Shown: positions 10,435 to 17,024 of the stretch, piece after piece
How positions within the stretch are numbered: the stretch's first letter is position 1
Layout: each line of letters begins with the position of its first letter
Origin: a virus
DNA: 22,772 nucleotides
Reading direction: 5' to 3' (one strand)
Virus record (IMG/VR): IMGVR_UViG_3300036861_000338
Location: 1-22,772 of that record
The notes under the pieces: model-generated
Databases searched by the model: none
Seen by the model: the letters and a program-made list of their open reading frames with translations, nothing else
What the model was told of the DNA's origin: nothing
Program-made: the position numbers and the translations under genes

Positions 10435-11886
10435 ATGCCCTACCACGTCGATGAGACATCCCAGTGTCCGGCGTCCAAGCCGTTCGGGGTCATCAAGGAC
10501 GCCGACGGGTCGGTGGACGGCCGCTGCCACGCCACCCGTGAGGCCGCAGAACGCCAGATGGCCGCCCTGTACGCGGCCGAGCCGCAAGCATCCAGGAGGG
10601 CAGCCGTGGCCGTGTCCAACCGGCCCTGGTCGGACTTCACCCAAGCGGACTACACCGACGAGCAGTGGGCCCGCGCGTGCCTGATCGACACCGGCGAAGG
10701 CGCGGGCAAGCAGCGCTACAAGCTCCCCGTCCGCGAACCCAGCGGCGCGCTGAACCGCAACGCGGTGCATGCCGCCGGCGGCGGCCACGGTGTCGGGGCG
10801 GTGACGGGTGTCTCCCCGGACAAGAAGCGCGCCGCCGCCCGCAAGCTCGTCAGCCTCTACCGCAACGACCTCAACGAAGACCCCCCGGAGGGCCTCATGA
10901 CCGCAGCAGGGATGAGCGCGACGGGCAGCCGCACCGACCAGCTGCTCGACGGCCTGCACCCCTATGTCCGCTCGTTCCCGCTGGAGGACATCCGCATCCG
11001 CGCCGGCGGTGACGGCCGCACCGTGGAGGCCTACGCGGCGGTGTTCGATACCCCCGCCGAGATCCACGACCAGGACGGCCACTACCTCGAGGTCAACGAC
11101 CGCGTCATGTTCAACCGCGCCATCAGCGATGCCGCCCCTGCGGGCGGCCGCACCGGCTGGCGCGTCGGGGTCTTCTACAACCACGGCATGACGATCTACC
11201 GGACCCCCTCGGAGCGGGGGTCGGTCCCGATCGGGTCGCCGATGGAGGTCAAGGCCGATGCCCGCGGGCTGTGGACGCTGACCCGCTACCACCGCACCGC
11301 GCTGGCCGACGAGGTCCTTGAGCTGATCCGCGAGGGCGCCATCGATGGCTACAGCTTCCAGGGCATGTACCTGCGGTCGTCGGCGACCGACCACACCGGC
11401 CGCCCCATCACCCGGATACCCCGCGGCGGGTTCCGTCCCGGCCCGGGCGGGGAGCTGGTCACGGTCCGGCGGATGGAATCGACGCTGCGGGAGTACGGCC
11501 CGACCCCGTTCCCCGCCTACGCCGAGGCGGCAGTGGTCGGGATGCGCGCTGGCCTGGCCGCGCAGCTGCTCTCCAGCCTGGCCCCCGGCGAGCGTGCGCA
11601 ACTCGCCACCCTGCTCCGGGATGACGCTCCCCCCGACGCTCCGCAGGACGCGGACTCGTCGGACGACCAGCCATCCCCCGACGCTCCCGACGATTCGGGA
11701 CTCGTCGCCGACGACTCGCCCCCCTCTGAGGAGGAGGAGCACTCGAGCCGGCATGACCAGCTTGTGACGCGCATCCGCGCGCTCAAGGCCGACCGTCCCG
11801 GTCTGCTGCCGCCACCGGTCGTCACCCGCGCCGCCGAGGCGCTGGCGACCCGCCGTGGCAGCGCCTCGGGCGACCAGCCCGGATGA
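10435..11886 (+). CDS. Prohead protease (HK97-type) with fused N-terminal domains
   Basis: A 483-residue capsid maturation protein. Residues 1-50 are a small domain (FGVIKDADGSVDGRCHATRE, then RQMAALYAAE). Residues 58-150 form a second domain starting AVSNRPWSDFTQADYTDEQW and rich in Lys/Arg. From about 190 to 330 lies the HK97 serine protease fold: VEAYAAVFDTPAEI, FYNHG with catalytic His250, GLWTLTRYH and GYSFQG with catalytic Ser307. An acidic Asp/Pro/Ser linker (about 395-440) and a basic tail follow. It cuts the capsid protein's N-terminal delta domain and itself during head maturation. Two in-frame internal starts with strong ribosome sites (GTG 10606 and ATG 10897) could give shorter forms at the domain boundaries. 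Confidence 0.88.
   Translation: MPYHVDETSQCPASKPFGVIKDADGSVDGRCHATREAAERQMAALYAAEPQASRRAAVAVSNRPWSDFTQADYTDEQWARACLIDTGEGAGKQRYKLPVREPSGALNRNAVHAAGGGHGVGAVTGVSPDKKRAAARKLVSLYRNDLNEDPPEGLMTAAGMSATGSRTDQLLDGLHPYVRSFPLEDIRIRAGGDGRTVEAYAAVFDTPAEIHDQDGHYLEVNDRVMFNRAISDAAPAGGRTGWRVGVFYNHGMTIYRTPSERGSVPIGSPMEVKADARGLWTLTRYHRTALADEVLELIREGAIDGYSFQGMYLRSSATDHTGRPITRIPRGGFRPGPGGELVTVRRMESTLREYGPTPFPAYAEAAVVGMRAGLAAQLLSSLAPGERAQLATLLRDDAPPDAPQDADSSDDQPSPDAPDDSGLVADDSPPSEEEEHSSRHDQLVTRIRALKADRPGLLPPPVVTRAAEALATRRGSASGDQPG
10594..10608 (+). promoter_or_regulatory. Internal ribosome site and GTG start in the protease gene
   Basis: AGGAGGG at 10594-10600 lies five bases before an in-frame GTG at 10606. A protein from this start would begin MAVSNRPWSDF and have 426 residues, exactly where the second domain begins. 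It may mark an originally separate gene later fused in frame. Confidence 0.5.
10887..10899 (+). promoter_or_regulatory. Internal ribosome site and ATG start before the protease fold
   Basis: GGAGGG at 10887-10892 lies four bases before an in-frame ATG at 10897 (MTAAGMSATG). A protein from here would have 329 residues and hold the whole protease fold and acidic tail without the N-terminal domains. Confidence 0.5.
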
Positions 11887-12119
11887 ACCCCCGGGAGATC
11901 GCAGATCGGCAGGAGGCGATCCGCGCCGAGCTGCGCGGGCTCGCCGCCGACGGACCCGTCACCGACGGGCCACGCGGCGACCTCGCCGACGAGCTCCTGG
12001 ACGAGTACGAACGGCTGGAGGCCAGACGGAAGCTGCTGCGGCGGCTTCGGCAGATGCGGGTCACGAAAGCGCTCCGGCCGGGCCACGACGGTCCGGCCGG
12101 GCAAGGAGGCTCGAAGTGA
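11883..12119 (+). CDS. Short coiled-coil protein related to the capsid delta domain, 78 aa
   Basis: ATG 11883 overlaps the protease stop (ATGA). The 78-residue product opens MNPREIADRQEAIRAELRGL and continues with LADELLDEYERLEARR. The major capsid protein next door opens MNLREILDRQEAIRAELKKI and has VDTLVDEYDRLEERR at the same distance. The two are clearly duplicates, and a 26-base stretch is identical (11904-11929 and 12137-12162). In HK97-type phages the capsid N-terminus (delta domain) acts as an internal scaffold. This gene may thus supply a free scaffold-like helix, or be a remnant of a duplication. Its end overlaps the capsid GTG. Confidence 0.75.
   Translation: MNPREIADRQEAIRAELRGLAADGPVTDGPRGDLADELLDEYERLEARRKLLRRLRQMRVTKALRPGHDGPAGQGGSK
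11904..11929 (+). repeat. 26-base direct repeat shared with the capsid gene, copy 1
   Basis: Identical to 12137-12162. Encodes part of the DRQEAIRAEL helix in the small coiled-coil protein and marks a gene-part duplication. Confidence 0.85.
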
Positions 12120-13510
12120 ATCTCAGAGAGATCCTCGATCGGCAGGAGGCGATCCGCGCCGAACTGAAGAAGATCGAGGACAACCCCGCCGAGGTCGAGG
12201 AGCACTCCGGCGACTACGTCGACACCCTCGTCGACGAGTATGACCGGCTGGAGGAGCGGCGCGTCCCGCTGGCGACCCGCGCCGAGAAGCTCAACCTGAT
12301 CGCCGCCGCCGCCAAGGACGACGACGCCACCGAGCCCGGCTCCGACCGGCAGGCACCCGAGCAGGTCTACCGCAACAAGCGCGACCCGTTCGACGACATG
12401 GAGTCGGTGCGGTCCAGCGGGCCGACGGGGCGGATGCGCGCCTCGGAGATCCGCTCCCGCGCCCACGACGCGATCGAGTGGGTGAGCCGCGCCGGATTCG
12501 TCGACTTCCCCGACGAGCACGCCGAGCGCGCCAGCCAGCTCGCCACCACCGTCCCCGGCGTCGCCAAGCACATCCTGCTCACCGGATCGCAGGAGTACTA
12601 CGAGCAGTTCCGCGCCTACCTGCAGGACCCCGAGGGGATGGGCCAGCGGTCCACCACCCTCGGCACCGGCTCCCTGGGGTTCATGCTCCCGTTCGTGCTG
12701 GACCCCACCATCATCCTCACCAATGCCGGCAGCATGAACCCCTACCGGCGGATCTCCCGGGTCGAGCAGACCACCTCCAACACCTGGAACGGCGTCTCCT
12801 CCGCCGGCGTCAACGCCGCGTTCGTCGGTGAGGCAACCGCCGCCTCTGACCAGTCGCCGAGCGTCGGGCAGATCCAGATCACCCCCAAGCGCGCGCAGGC
12901 GTGGGTGTTCGGCTCCTACGAGTCCCTGGAGGACTCCGACCTCGGCCTGCAGCTCCCGCGGCTGTTCGCCGACGCCAAGGACCGCCTGGAGGAGTCGGCG
13001 TTCGCCACCGGGGTCGGCACCGGCAACATCCCCAAGGGCGCCATGACGGCCGCGACGACCGGCAACACCGCCGCCGCGACCGCCTACGCCGTCGGCGACG
13101 TCTACACCCTCCAGGGCCGCCTGGGGCCGCGGTTCCGCAACAGCCGCCGCGCGGCGTGGCTCGCCAACCTCTTCTACATCAACAAGACAAGGCAGTTCGA
13201 CACCGCCGGGGGCAGCTCGTTCTGGGCCAACCTCGGCCAGGGCACCCCCGAGCAGCTCCTCGGCCAGCCGGTCTACGAGTCCAGCTCGCTGTCGGCCGGC
13301 ACCGCGTCGGCGTCCAAGGTCCTGCTGTACGGCGACTTCGAGCAGTACATCATCGTGGACCGGATCGGGATGCGGGTCCTCTATAACCCGATGGTGACCG
13401 CCGCCGCCACAGCTAACTTGCCAACTGCAGAAGCCGGCTGGTTCGCCTTCTGGCGCGTAGGCGCAGATGCCTCAACGGCAAACGCCCTGCAAGCGCTGCT
13501 CATCCAGTAA
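12116..13510 (+). CDS. Major capsid protein (HK97 fold)
   Basis: GTG 12116 overlaps the previous stop and follows AAGGAGG with six bases of spacing. The 464-residue protein begins with a charged coiled-coil delta domain (residues 1-60) and an acidic linker. A helical region ends near ATTVPGVAKHILLTGSQEYY, and the HK97 capsid fold follows. Typical marks are LGFMLPFVLDPTIILTN, NPYRRISRVEQTTSNTWNG, AFVGEATAASD, ITPKRAQAWVFGSYESLED and the C-terminal LLYGDFEQYIIVDRIGM. It forms the icosahedral shell after the protease removes the delta domain. The final ~35 codons (from about 13405) use GCT, TTG, ACT, TCA and GCA codons unlike the rest, just before an endonuclease gene. Confidence 0.95.
   Translation: MNLREILDRQEAIRAELKKIEDNPAEVEEHSGDYVDTLVDEYDRLEERRVPLATRAEKLNLIAAAAKDDDATEPGSDRQAPEQVYRNKRDPFDDMESVRSSGPTGRMRASEIRSRAHDAIEWVSRAGFVDFPDEHAERASQLATTVPGVAKHILLTGSQEYYEQFRAYLQDPEGMGQRSTTLGTGSLGFMLPFVLDPTIILTNAGSMNPYRRISRVEQTTSNTWNGVSSAGVNAAFVGEATAASDQSPSVGQIQITPKRAQAWVFGSYESLEDSDLGLQLPRLFADAKDRLEESAFATGVGTGNIPKGAMTAATTGNTAAATAYAVGDVYTLQGRLGPRFRNSRRAAWLANLFYINKTRQFDTAGGSSFWANLGQGTPEQLLGQPVYESSSLSAGTASASKVLLYGDFEQYIIVDRIGMRVLYNPMVTAAATANLPTAEAGWFAFWRVGADASTANALQALLIQ
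12137..12162 (+). repeat. 26-base direct repeat, copy 2 (capsid N-terminus)
   Basis: Identical to 11904-11929. See the entry for copy 1. Confidence 0.85.
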
Positions 13511-13576: not shown

Positions 13577-13608
13577 GGGCCACCACCCTGTCGAGGAGGG
13601 CAATGACC

Positions 13609-14187
13609 ATGAGCGAGCGTACCTGCTCCGCCGATGGCTGTAACCGTCGGTACAAGGCCAAGGGCTTCTGCTCGACGCATAAGTACCGGGCTGAGAACGG
13701 CTTGGATCTGACTGCACCGATCCGCCAGTACGAGACCGGCGAGCGCCGCTGCAAGCTGCTGGGCTGCGACCAGCTCCGCGAGCATGACGCGACCTACTGC
13801 CCAATGCACCGGGCGCGTCTCCTCAAGACAGGCTCGCCGGGAGAACCGGCACGGCGGAGGATGCCGTTCGGCGAGGCCATCTGGGACAAGCCGGATTACA
13901 AGCGCCGCCACGTGCTCAAGAAGCTCTACGACCTCACGCCCGAGCAGTATGCGGAGCTGTTCGAGGCGCAGGGGCGCTGTTGCGCCATCTGCAAGACCAC
14001 CGAGCCTGGCGGCAAGCATGCTGGGAAACCCAACCGGTCAAGCTGGCATTGGCCTGTCGACCACGATCATGTGACCGGCCGGGTTCGTGGGCTGCTGTGC
14101 GAGCACTGCAACCGGGCCATCGGTCTGCTCAAGGACGACCCGGAGATCATCGCCGCCGCAGCGCGGTATGTAGCGCGCGGCGCGTAA
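13609..14187 (+). CDS. Endonuclease VII-type HNH nuclease (homing-like)
   Basis: A 192-residue protein. The N-terminus has two zinc-finger-like repeats, Cys6/Cys11/Cys21/His24 (CSADGCNRRYKAKGFCSTH) and Cys48/Cys53/Cys64/His67. The C-terminal part is the recombination endonuclease VII fold: LYDLTPEQYAELFEAQGRCC, AICKT, then VDHDH (150-154, catalytic), GRVRGLLCEHCNRAIGLL and a C-terminal helix. T4 endonuclease VII resolves branched DNA. Stand-alone genes with this fold and extra zinc fingers, set between structural genes, are usually mobile. ATG 13609 is preferred over 13603 because the AGGAGG (13594-13599) is nine bases from it and only three from the other. It is flanked by two long perfect hairpins. 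Confidence 0.85.
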   Translation: MSERTCSADGCNRRYKAKGFCSTHKYRAENGLDLTAPIRQYETGERRCKLLGCDQLREHDATYCPMHRARLLKTGSPGEPARRRMPFGEAIWDKPDYKRRHVLKKLYDLTPEQYAELFEAQGRCCAICKTTEPGGKHAGKPNRSSWHWPVDHDHVTGRVRGLLCEHCNRAIGLLKDDPEIIAAAARYVARGA

Positions 14188-14244: not shown

Positions 14245-14263
14245 CGGTGTCATGGGAGACCGC

Positions 14264-14554
14264 ATGCCCGAAACCGAAGTCACCCGCGAGCAGCTCCTCG
14301 CCAGCGTCCACACCCTCGAACCGGGGGACGTCCTCGTCATCCGCCTCCCCGCCGATACGCGGCGGCGCGATGCCGAGGACCTCGCCGATGCGGTGCGGTC
14401 GGTAGTTGAGCCGCTTGGCGCCCGCGTGCTCGTCATGGCCGGGACGACCACCGTCGAGGTCGTCCGCAGAGTCGACACCATCGATGAGGCGGTGCGGCTG
14501 GCGACCGCCAACCCGGGCCGCACCTTCGAGGCCGACCCCGGGGCGACCTCGTGA
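14264..14554 (+). CDS. Hypothetical protein, 96 aa
   Basis: ATG 14264 has GGGAG upstream at good spacing; an in-frame ATG at 14252 has none. The protein is alpha/beta: a helix, a strand LEPGDVLVIRLP, a helix DAEDLADAVRSVVEPLG, a strand ARVLVMAG and an acidic end. Proteins with the 'PGDvLVIR...vLVM' pattern are frequent phage hypotheticals near head genes, with no assigned function that I know. Its stop overlaps the GTG of the glycosyltransferase gene, so the two are likely co-translated. Confidence 0.65.
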   Translation: MPETEVTREQLLASVHTLEPGDVLVIRLPADTRRRDAEDLADAVRSVVEPLGARVLVMAGTTTVEVVRRVDTIDEAVRLATANPGRTFEADPGATS

Positions 14555-15567
14555 CCCAATCCGACCAGCTCACGATCCTCGGCTACCCCCACCAGGCCGA
14601 CGGGTCCGGCTACTACCGGTACTACCTGCCCTACCAGCATCTCGCCCGCGGGACCGAGCATCGCATCCTGCTGCCGGAGCCGGGGGTGAAGTTCACCCCC
14701 GACGACGAGCAGGTCGAAGAGATCGACATGATCGTCGGGCAGCGGTTCTGCGGCCCCGACGGCATGGCGCTGTGGCAGCGGTGGAAGGGCAAGGTGCTGC
14801 TCGTCTACGAGATCGACGACGACGTGCTCCAGCCCGACACGTGGTCGGGGCTGCACCACTGGTTCGAGCCGCTGGTCCGGGAGTCGTTCAAGACCTGCAT
14901 CCGCATCTCGGACCTGGTAACGGTATCGACCGAGCCGCTGGCCACCCAGATGCGCAAGCTCAACCCCAACGTGGTGGTCCTCCCCAACCACTTCGACGCC
15001 GACGCGCTGTATGTGACCCGGCCCCGCCGGGAGCGGCTGACGGTCGGCTGGTCGGGTGGCATGTCGCACCTGCGCGACTGGACCGAGATCGCCGACCCTG
15101 TCCGCGAGGTCCTGCACGCGCACCCGGATGTGGATGTGCACTTCCTGGGGATCGACTACTCCCCGGTGCTGAAGCTGGACCGCCCGACCCGGTTCACGCC
15201 GTGGAAGCCGGATGTGTGGGGGTACTTCAAGGCCAACGACTTCGACATCGGCCTGGCGCCGCTGGCCGACACCCCGTTCAACGCCTCGAAGTCCCATATC
15301 CGGGCGCTGGAGTACATGGCGCTGGGGGTGCCGGTGATCGCGTCGGACTGCCCCGCCTACCGCGACCTGGTCGTCGACGGCGTCACCGGCTACCTCGTCT
15401 CGACGTCGGAGCAGTGGGCGGCGCGGCTGCGGGAGCTCATCAACGATGAGGCCGCCCGGACGGAACTTGGCGCCAAGGGCCGAGAGGTCGCCCACGGCTG
15501 GACGATCCAGAGCGGCTGGAAGCTCTGGCGGGACGCCTATGAGGAGGTCGCAGGATGGCAGGGCTAG
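14551..15567 (+). CDS. Glycosyltransferase, GT-B fold (GT4-like)
   Basis: GTG 14551 overlaps the previous stop. The 338-residue protein has two Rossmann-like halves. The N-terminal half begins with ILGYPHQADGSGYYRYYLP and has YEIDDD at residues 86-91. The C-terminal half has LTVGWSGGMSHLRDW (163-177) and the donor-binding run DIGLAPL (232-238), NASKS (244-248) and RALEYMALGVPVIAS (251-265). The Lys247/Glu254 spacing and the 'EYMALGVPVIAS' motif are classic for GT4-type enzymes, which move a sugar from a nucleotide donor to an acceptor. No signal or membrane segment is seen, so it acts in the cytoplasm. It opens a four-enzyme sugar cassette. The acceptor is unknown. Confidence 0.88.
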   Translation: MTQSDQLTILGYPHQADGSGYYRYYLPYQHLARGTEHRILLPEPGVKFTPDDEQVEEIDMIVGQRFCGPDGMALWQRWKGKVLLVYEIDDDVLQPDTWSGLHHWFEPLVRESFKTCIRISDLVTVSTEPLATQMRKLNPNVVVLPNHFDADALYVTRPRRERLTVGWSGGMSHLRDWTEIADPVREVLHAHPDVDVHFLGIDYSPVLKLDRPTRFTPWKPDVWGYFKANDFDIGLAPLADTPFNASKSHIRALEYMALGVPVIASDCPAYRDLVVDGVTGYLVSTSEQWAARLRELINDEAARTELGAKGREVAHGWTIQSGWKLWRDAYEEVAGWQG

Positions 15568-15815: not shown

Positions 15816-17024
15816 ATGCAACGCGACCGATGCGGCGGCTGCGGCAGCGATCAGCTCGAGGTGTTCCTCGACCTCGGCTCCACGCCGCTGGCCGACCGGT
15901 TCCCCGCCACCCCCGACGAACCCGAGGACACCTGGCCGCTCGAGGTCGCGGTGTGCCGCGCCTGCTGGCTGGTGCAGCTCCTGGAGGTCGTCCCCGATGA
16001 GCTGCTCTGGGATGTGAGCTATGGGTTCTACTCGGGGGCGTCGCCGTCGAAGGTCGCCGAGCATCAGGCGCTGGCCGCCGAGCTGCTGGCCACCTACCCG
16101 GAGCAGGCCAAGCGGCTGACGGTTGAGATCGCCTGCAACGACGGCGACCTGCTGCGCCATTTCCACGCGGCCGGCTGTCCGGTGGTCGGGATCGACCCGG
16201 CGGAAGGGCCGATGCTGCAGACGTTCGCCTGGCTGCTGGACCGCTACGTCGAACCGTTCGGCCGGGCTGCCGCCGCGAAGATCCGTGAGGAGGTCGGCCC
16301 GGCCGGGCTCGTCATCGCCCGCAACGTCGCCGCCCACGTCGCCGACCTCGACGACTTCTTCGGCGGCATCGTCGACCTGCTCGCGCCCGACGGCGTGGCA
16401 GTGGTGGAGGTGCAGTACCTGGCGGACCTGCTGGCCGGCAACCAGTTCGACCACGTCTACCACGAGCACCGGTTCTACTTCTCGCTATGGTCGCTGTGGC
16501 AGGTGTGCGCGAGGGCTGGGCTGCGGATCGCCAAGGTCGACTGGACCGAGCAGCAGGGCGGGAGCATCCGGGTGGCGCTGCTACGCGGCCACGACCTCAA
16601 GGAACCCGAGGGCGTCTGGTACGAGCGGGAACGTCTCGGCCTGGTCGGTATGAGTGCCTACAAGAGCTTCGCCGGGCGGGTCGAGTACCTTCGCGGCCGG
16701 CTGGCCAGCCTCGTCATGGCTGAACGGCGGGCAGGGCGCCGGCTGGCCGGGTATGGCGCCACCGCCAAGTCGACCACGCTCCTGAACGCCTGCAGCATCG
16801 GTGCCAGCCTGCTGGAGTACATCGAGGATCTGACCCCCGCCAAGATCGGCCGCTACGCCCCCGGCACCCACATCCCCGTCGTCGCGCCCGGCGACCGGGA
16901 GCCGCCCGATGTCTACCTGCTGCTGGCGTGGAACTACCTGCCCGGCGTCATCCACCGGGAGCGGGCGTTCCTGGAGCGCGGTGGCCGGTTCCTGGTTCCG
17001 ATCCCGGTCCCGGTGCTGCTGTGA
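15816..17024 (+). CDS. Sugar C-methyltransferase (TylC3/NovU-like family)
   Basis: A 402-residue, three-domain enzyme. The N-terminal zinc-binding domain has CGGC at residues 6-9 and CRAC at 47-50. The SAM-binding methyltransferase core has VEIACNDGDLL (103-113), VVGIDPAEG (123-131) and ARNVAAHVADLDDF (168-181). The catalytic segment is FDHVYHEHRFYFSL (211-224). The C-terminal domain has RLAGYGATAKSTTLLN and YLLLAWNY. Relatives add a methyl group to C-3 or C-5 of an NDP-4-keto-deoxysugar. With the downstream dehydratase this suggests a branched, methylated deoxysugar. ATG 15816 is preferred over the out-of-frame ATG at 15812, with GGAGG five bases upstream. The usual length of the family is about 400 residues, so it looks intact. 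Confidence 0.9.
   Translation: MQRDRCGGCGSDQLEVFLDLGSTPLADRFPATPDEPEDTWPLEVAVCRACWLVQLLEVVPDELLWDVSYGFYSGASPSKVAEHQALAAELLATYPEQAKRLTVEIACNDGDLLRHFHAAGCPVVGIDPAEGPMLQTFAWLLDRYVEPFGRAAAAKIREEVGPAGLVIARNVAAHVADLDDFFGGIVDLLAPDGVAVVEVQYLADLLAGNQFDHVYHEHRFYFSLWSLWQVCARAGLRIAKVDWTEQQGGSIRVALLRGHDLKEPEGVWYERERLGLVGMSAYKSFAGRVEYLRGRLASLVMAERRAGRRLAGYGATAKSTTLLNACSIGASLLEYIEDLTPAKIGRYAPGTHIPVVAPGDREPPDVYLLLAWNYLPGVIHRERAFLERGGRFLVPIPVPVLL

Follow-up and report, generated by a model that had tools for sequence, protein, structure and literature searches.

A second delta-domain-like segment in a small chimeric reading frame at the protease/capsid junction of an uncultured virus

In HK97-like phages the head scaffold is fused to the capsid protein, whereas in others it is a separate protein (PMC8569155, PMC3185693), and in HK97 itself the delta domain, residues 2-66, forms portal-binding towers of trimeric coiled coil (PMC10275583). 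A scaffold helix of the HK97 type is normally present only at the capsid N-terminus, as the initial annotation of the DNA analysed here had stated and as published descriptions bear out (PMC8569155, PMC10275583), and five cultured relatives of this virus have no gene annotated between protease and capsid. A second delta-domain protein that meets a phage capsid protein is Ccm of the satellite SaPIbov5, a complete capsid homologue of 355 residues that redirects capsid size and shape (PMC8569155). A literature search for separate or duplicated delta domains, made mostly without subscription papers, returned no case matching the one described below.

The window, i.e. the whole stretch of DNA analysed, comprises 22,772 nucleotides and corresponds to positions 1 to 22,772 of the uncultured virus record IMGVR_UViG_3300036861_000338. 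Between its protease and capsid genes lies a small ORF that repeats the beginning of the capsid protein, the two versions being referred to here as copy 1 (small ORF) and copy 2 (capsid). The features of this region are as follows.

10435..11886, + strand: prohead protease gene, S78 family (Pfam Peptidase_S78, E=6.5e-8; phrog_80 head maturation protease, E=9.8e-15)
11883..12119, + strand: small chimeric ORF of 78 aa with an ATG start, copy 1 (ORF list and translation)
11883..12029, + strand: residues 1-49 of the small ORF, predicted delta-domain-like helical hairpin (capsid-start match, delta HMM, AlphaFold2)
11904..11929, + strand: 26-nt run identical to 12137-12162, inside the small ORF; also in the related phages L003 and L043
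12030..12116, + strand: residues 50-78 of the small ORF, resembling a protease C-terminal tail (pairwise alignment with relatives' proteases)
12103..12109, + strand: Shine-Dalgarno AAGGAGG of the capsid gene, within the 3' end of the small ORF
12116..13510, + strand: major capsid protein gene with a GTG start, 464 aa; its residues 1-49 serve as the reference delta, copy 2 (Pfam Phage_capsid, E=1.6e-32)
12137..12162, + strand: second occurrence of the 26-nt run, inside the capsid gene

At its start the small ORF overlaps the protease stop by four bases (ATGA, 11883-11886), and at its end the GTG of the capsid gene, at 12116, overlaps it by four bases as well (GTGA). In a viral contig search the capsid protein had relatives with up to 83% amino acid identity. 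The small ORF product and the HK97-type delta domain (first 66 residues, PMC10275583) are alike in being of capsid N-terminal type and of similar length, and helical, by prediction for the small ORF, but in the window this is a second copy, placed in a separate 78-aa ORF that ends like a protease tail. Residues 1-49 are homologous to the N-terminal end of an HK97-fold capsid protein, whereas fusion to the capsid protein and removal by the protease, which also characterize such a domain, do not apply to a separate frame with its own stop at 12119. As in lambda, P22, SPP1 and phi29, a small protein, here predicted to be helical, is encoded beside the capsid gene; however, the scaffolds of those phages are their sole scaffold while the window capsid keeps its own delta, and the likeness is one of size, predicted fold and gene position. 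In contrast to Ccm, the small ORF corresponds only to the first part of a delta domain and is carried by the phage itself.

Residues 1-49 of the small ORF align without gaps with the start of the capsid protein, with 26 of 49 residues identical (53%, BLASTP E=5e-13) and a score of 122 that none of 5000 shuffles reached (mean 29.6, maximum 62). A delta HMM also matched the small ORF (E=2e-10), and at the DNA level the copies are about 67-70% identical (96/138 aligned nt, E=2e-13). The duplication of the capsid start proposed in the initial annotation is thus real, although it extends over about 49 residues instead of approximately 60, and the description as a free-standing delta domain suits these residues but not residues 50-78, which resemble a protease tail.

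When residues 50-78 were aligned with the C-terminal tails of relatives' proteases, the mean score was 33, as against 20 for shuffles (0 of 500 reached it); given that these residues match protease tails and not the capsid, the small ORF is a chimera. The 3' end of the protease gene of L004, another relative, aligns at the DNA level with the small ORF from CTGCTGC via CGGCCGGG to AAGGAGGCTC, before the capsid start, and the similarity extends up to the capsid Shine-Dalgarno. Correspondence of this part of the ORF to capsid residues 50-110 was ruled out (p=0.55 against shuffles). Because pooled protease-tail profiles (protein HMM and nhmmer) run on the window did not match the small ORF, so that the tail assignment rests on pairwise tests, we hold it with moderate to good confidence. 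Between the tail within the small ORF (tail B) and that of the window's own protease (tail A) there is no resemblance (DNA p=0.84). Read most simply, the sequence contains the protease/capsid junction twice, with an offset of 233 bp, and delta copy 1 would continue in frame into a second protease tail.

The occurrence of this arrangement was surveyed in three viral-contig searches with capsid queries, one bacterial genome hit and five cultured phages, yielding 137 distinct capsid starts with upstream sequence, the window counted. A second delta-like ORF was present at none of the 136 others, which include the sister phage L003 and five cultured actinophages, and the repeat therefore looks like a one-off rearrangement. 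Conservation within a phage group, which would be expected of a separate scaffold gene, was likewise not observed, as the gene occurs at none of these starts. According to the initial annotation, absence from all close relatives together with lack of expression would point to a neutral remnant, and the first half of this, the absence, is what was found. At each other locus that it matched, the delta profile detected one copy (in L049, two adjacent partial matches cover a single delta), and seven related phage records searched whole contain one delta copy each. Within the close clade, the capsid start directly follows the protease stop or overlaps with it. L003, the closest relative both upstream and downstream of the insert (amino acid identity of 79% for the portal, 87% for the protease domain, 86% for the capsid body and 83% for the glycosyltransferase), has the same flanking genes without it.

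Candidate second cases were rejected for L179, where the ORF is rich in arginine and reads the protease gene in an alternative frame, and for L172, where a long protease-capsid gap came from a miscalled ORF and the protease stop in fact abuts the capsid start; the gap in L200 is real, but self-comparison detected no delta-like ORF inside it. No match to the small ORF was obtained by tblastn against 50,697 phage records, and neither a 30-nt motif pattern scan nor small-ORF scans of the viral contigs revealed a free-standing copy. Among 395 genomes from the class of the bacterial genome hit there were only two single matches, both within long frames. Judged from these sequence comparisons, made with a collection from which records very near the window may be missing, the repeat is real, chimeric and private to one contig.

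The 26 identical bases pointed out in the initial annotation form an exact run beginning at 11904 and 12137, which is longer than chance within the copy pair in permutations by base (p=0.0005) and by codon (p=0.005). The same annotation had taken them to suggest a recent duplication or gene conversion, which does not hold, since the small ORF shares in-register exact runs with the capsid starts of L003 (28 nt) and L043 (26 nt); in addition, the copies are only 67% identical in DNA and the branch of copy 1 is very long. To judge from this distribution, the run is a mark of a conserved helix with favoured codons in the clade, and not of a recent copy event. Within the first delta helix, a stretch of 24-28 nt is identical in both window copies, L003 and L043, and other silent sites differ.

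In a DNA tree of 15 sequences copy 1 pairs with copy 2 (bootstrap 58), with a branch of 0.61 as against 0.047. The dN/dS between the two copies is 0.70 overall, compared with about 0.1-0.3 for most pairs of clade capsids, and copy 1 departs from its relatives at 11 of 29 columns conserved among them, whereas other clade capsids do so at 0-2. Ten of these 11 columns lie outside the two helical segments (Fisher p=0.0003, for a partition chosen after inspection of the alignment). In neutral simulations that started from copy 2 and introduced the same number of changes, about 19 amino acid identities were retained, as against the 26 observed (p=0.0005-0.005), and within the helices 10 of 24, as against 20 (p<1/4000, the helix/turn partition again being set after alignment inspection). 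About 60% of the simulated copies gained a stop within 49 codons; among random 78-codon stretches of the window, 42% are open. As far as purifying selection can be read from a single sequence, the helices are kept beyond neutral expectation and dN/dS is 0.70 overall. Since they surpass the simulations, the helices were probably constrained for much of the history of copy 1, whether in a small protein or in the capsid gene of a donor; the repeat occurs in one contig only, and thus there is no second example on which constraint could be tested.

No ribosome-binding site precedes the small ORF: the predicted duplex with the anti-Shine-Dalgarno is -4.7 kcal/mol at its start, which equals background (window mean -4.8), in contrast to -12.0 at the capsid start and to -6.3 to -15.3 at the capsid starts of relatives, nearly all of which pair well with the 16S anti-Shine-Dalgarno. 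Its codon-position G+C is gene-like, with 0.86 at third positions, and translation by reinitiation at the ATGA overlap with the protease stop is possible from the sequence. AlphaFold2 predicted two helices (3-22 and 30-64; mean pLDDT 83, about 95 within the helices) and a disordered end. In a Foldseek search of this model against viral models, the best match was to an HK97 capsid protein, which was not significant (E=0.2). By analogy, a free hairpin of this kind could enter the coiled-coil towers of the capsid delta domains as a minor partner.

Taken as a whole, the data lead us to favour, tentatively and as somewhat short of probable, a repeat born of a junction rearrangement that yields a weakly translated 78-aa chimera, accessory or tolerated, and not a scaffold. 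In this lineage, a rearrangement where the protease and capsid genes meet would have left the 3' end of the protease gene plus the 5' end of the capsid gene repeated 233 bp apart, giving the present order of protease body, tail A, delta copy 1, tail B, and finally delta copy 2 together with the capsid body. The first delta would then read in frame into tail B and end at the GTGA of the true capsid start. As the small ORF start lacks a ribosome-binding site, we postulate that little of the product is made, through termination-reinitiation at the protease stop. Its fold would be a helical hairpin resembling the N-terminal portion of the capsid delta domain, and it might join the delta coiled coils of the capsid in a minor, accessory role. 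It would not be the scaffold, because the capsid keeps a complete delta domain of its own. Against this account speak the occurrence in a single contig, the overall dN/dS of 0.70, the departures of copy 1 at conserved columns, a tail match seen pairwise but not with pooled profiles, and the dissimilarity of tails A and B.

A doubtful but serious alternative is that the repeat has no function, its frame being open because of G+C richness or the need to translate through to the coupled capsid start. The lack of the repeat at 136 other capsid starts, the missing Shine-Dalgarno, the long branch (0.61 versus 0.047), the dN/dS of 0.70 and the 42% of open random stretches all agree with this, while amino acid identity and helix conservation exceed the neutral simulations (p of 0.005 or less), in which some 60% of copies acquire a stop within 49 codons. 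These helices would also look conserved if copy 1 had been a working capsid start until recently, as it would have been if an illegitimate crossover between two related phages had fused the capsid start of one with protease tail and capsid from the other. Tail B is indeed nearer to the tails of L004 and L009 than to tail A, delta copy 2 is closest to L004 (84% amino acid identity), copy 1 is about equally far from all relatives (41-53%), and an endonuclease VII gene absent from L003 lies just after the capsid gene. We nevertheless regard such an import as quite improbable, given the departure of copy 1 at 11 of 29 columns (0-2 in other clade capsids), the lack of a donor among the viral contigs or the 50,697 phage records and the trees, which place copy 1, if weakly (58% bootstrap in the DNA tree), beside copy 2.

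It is unlikely, if still worth considering, that the chimera of scaffold hairpin and protease tail acts as a separate delta-type protein beside the fused delta, entering proheads and modulating assembly as an intermediate between fused and free-standing scaffolds. That it is an additional scaffold or a size-setting factor on which head assembly depends, along the lines envisaged in the initial annotation (which also named a role in capping assembly), we consider very improbable. Phages with a separate scaffold often keep its gene between protease and capsid, which is where the small ORF sits, and the predicted hairpin and the conserved helices accord with such a role; against it, the capsid still has its own delta domain, sister phages manage without the gene, and its start signal is weak. 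The evidence speaks more for a scar or an accessory product than for a scaffold, a reading that is possible but unneeded. Hardly credible is an artefact of metagenome assembly that merged two strains. The record does come from an uncultured virus and no independent copy was found, but a misjoin at shared sequence would collapse the region instead of duplicating it, a false tandem copy would be expected to be near-identical and not 67% identical, and copy 1 fits no sampled capsid start.

To our knowledge, how lineages pass between a separate and a fused head scaffold is not settled. A phage that carries the two forms together, one of them born of a repeat of the protease/capsid junction, would, if our functional reading is true, be a natural case of a step in this transition. 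Should the repeat be only a scar, it would still illustrate the origin of junction repeats and how they are tolerated in a coupled operon.

The region downstream of the capsid gene also differs from that of L003. Directly 3' of it lies an Endonuclease VII / HNH-type gene (13603-14187; Pfam Endonuclease_7, E=7.9e-21), possibly a mobile homing endonuclease, which has no counterpart at the corresponding place in L003. It is followed by a 100-aa ORF (14252-14554) that matches phrog_10352, of unknown function (E=1.8e-6), and that probably belongs to the same insertion, since it was not found in the compared relatives. The glycosyltransferase gene just downstream (14551-15567) is kept in relatives (70-83% amino acid identity) and is a candidate modifier of the virion or host surface. 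Among the structural genes there is also a C-methyltransferase of the sugar-modifying type (15816-17024; Methyltransf_13/14 domains), which is common to L003 at 63%.
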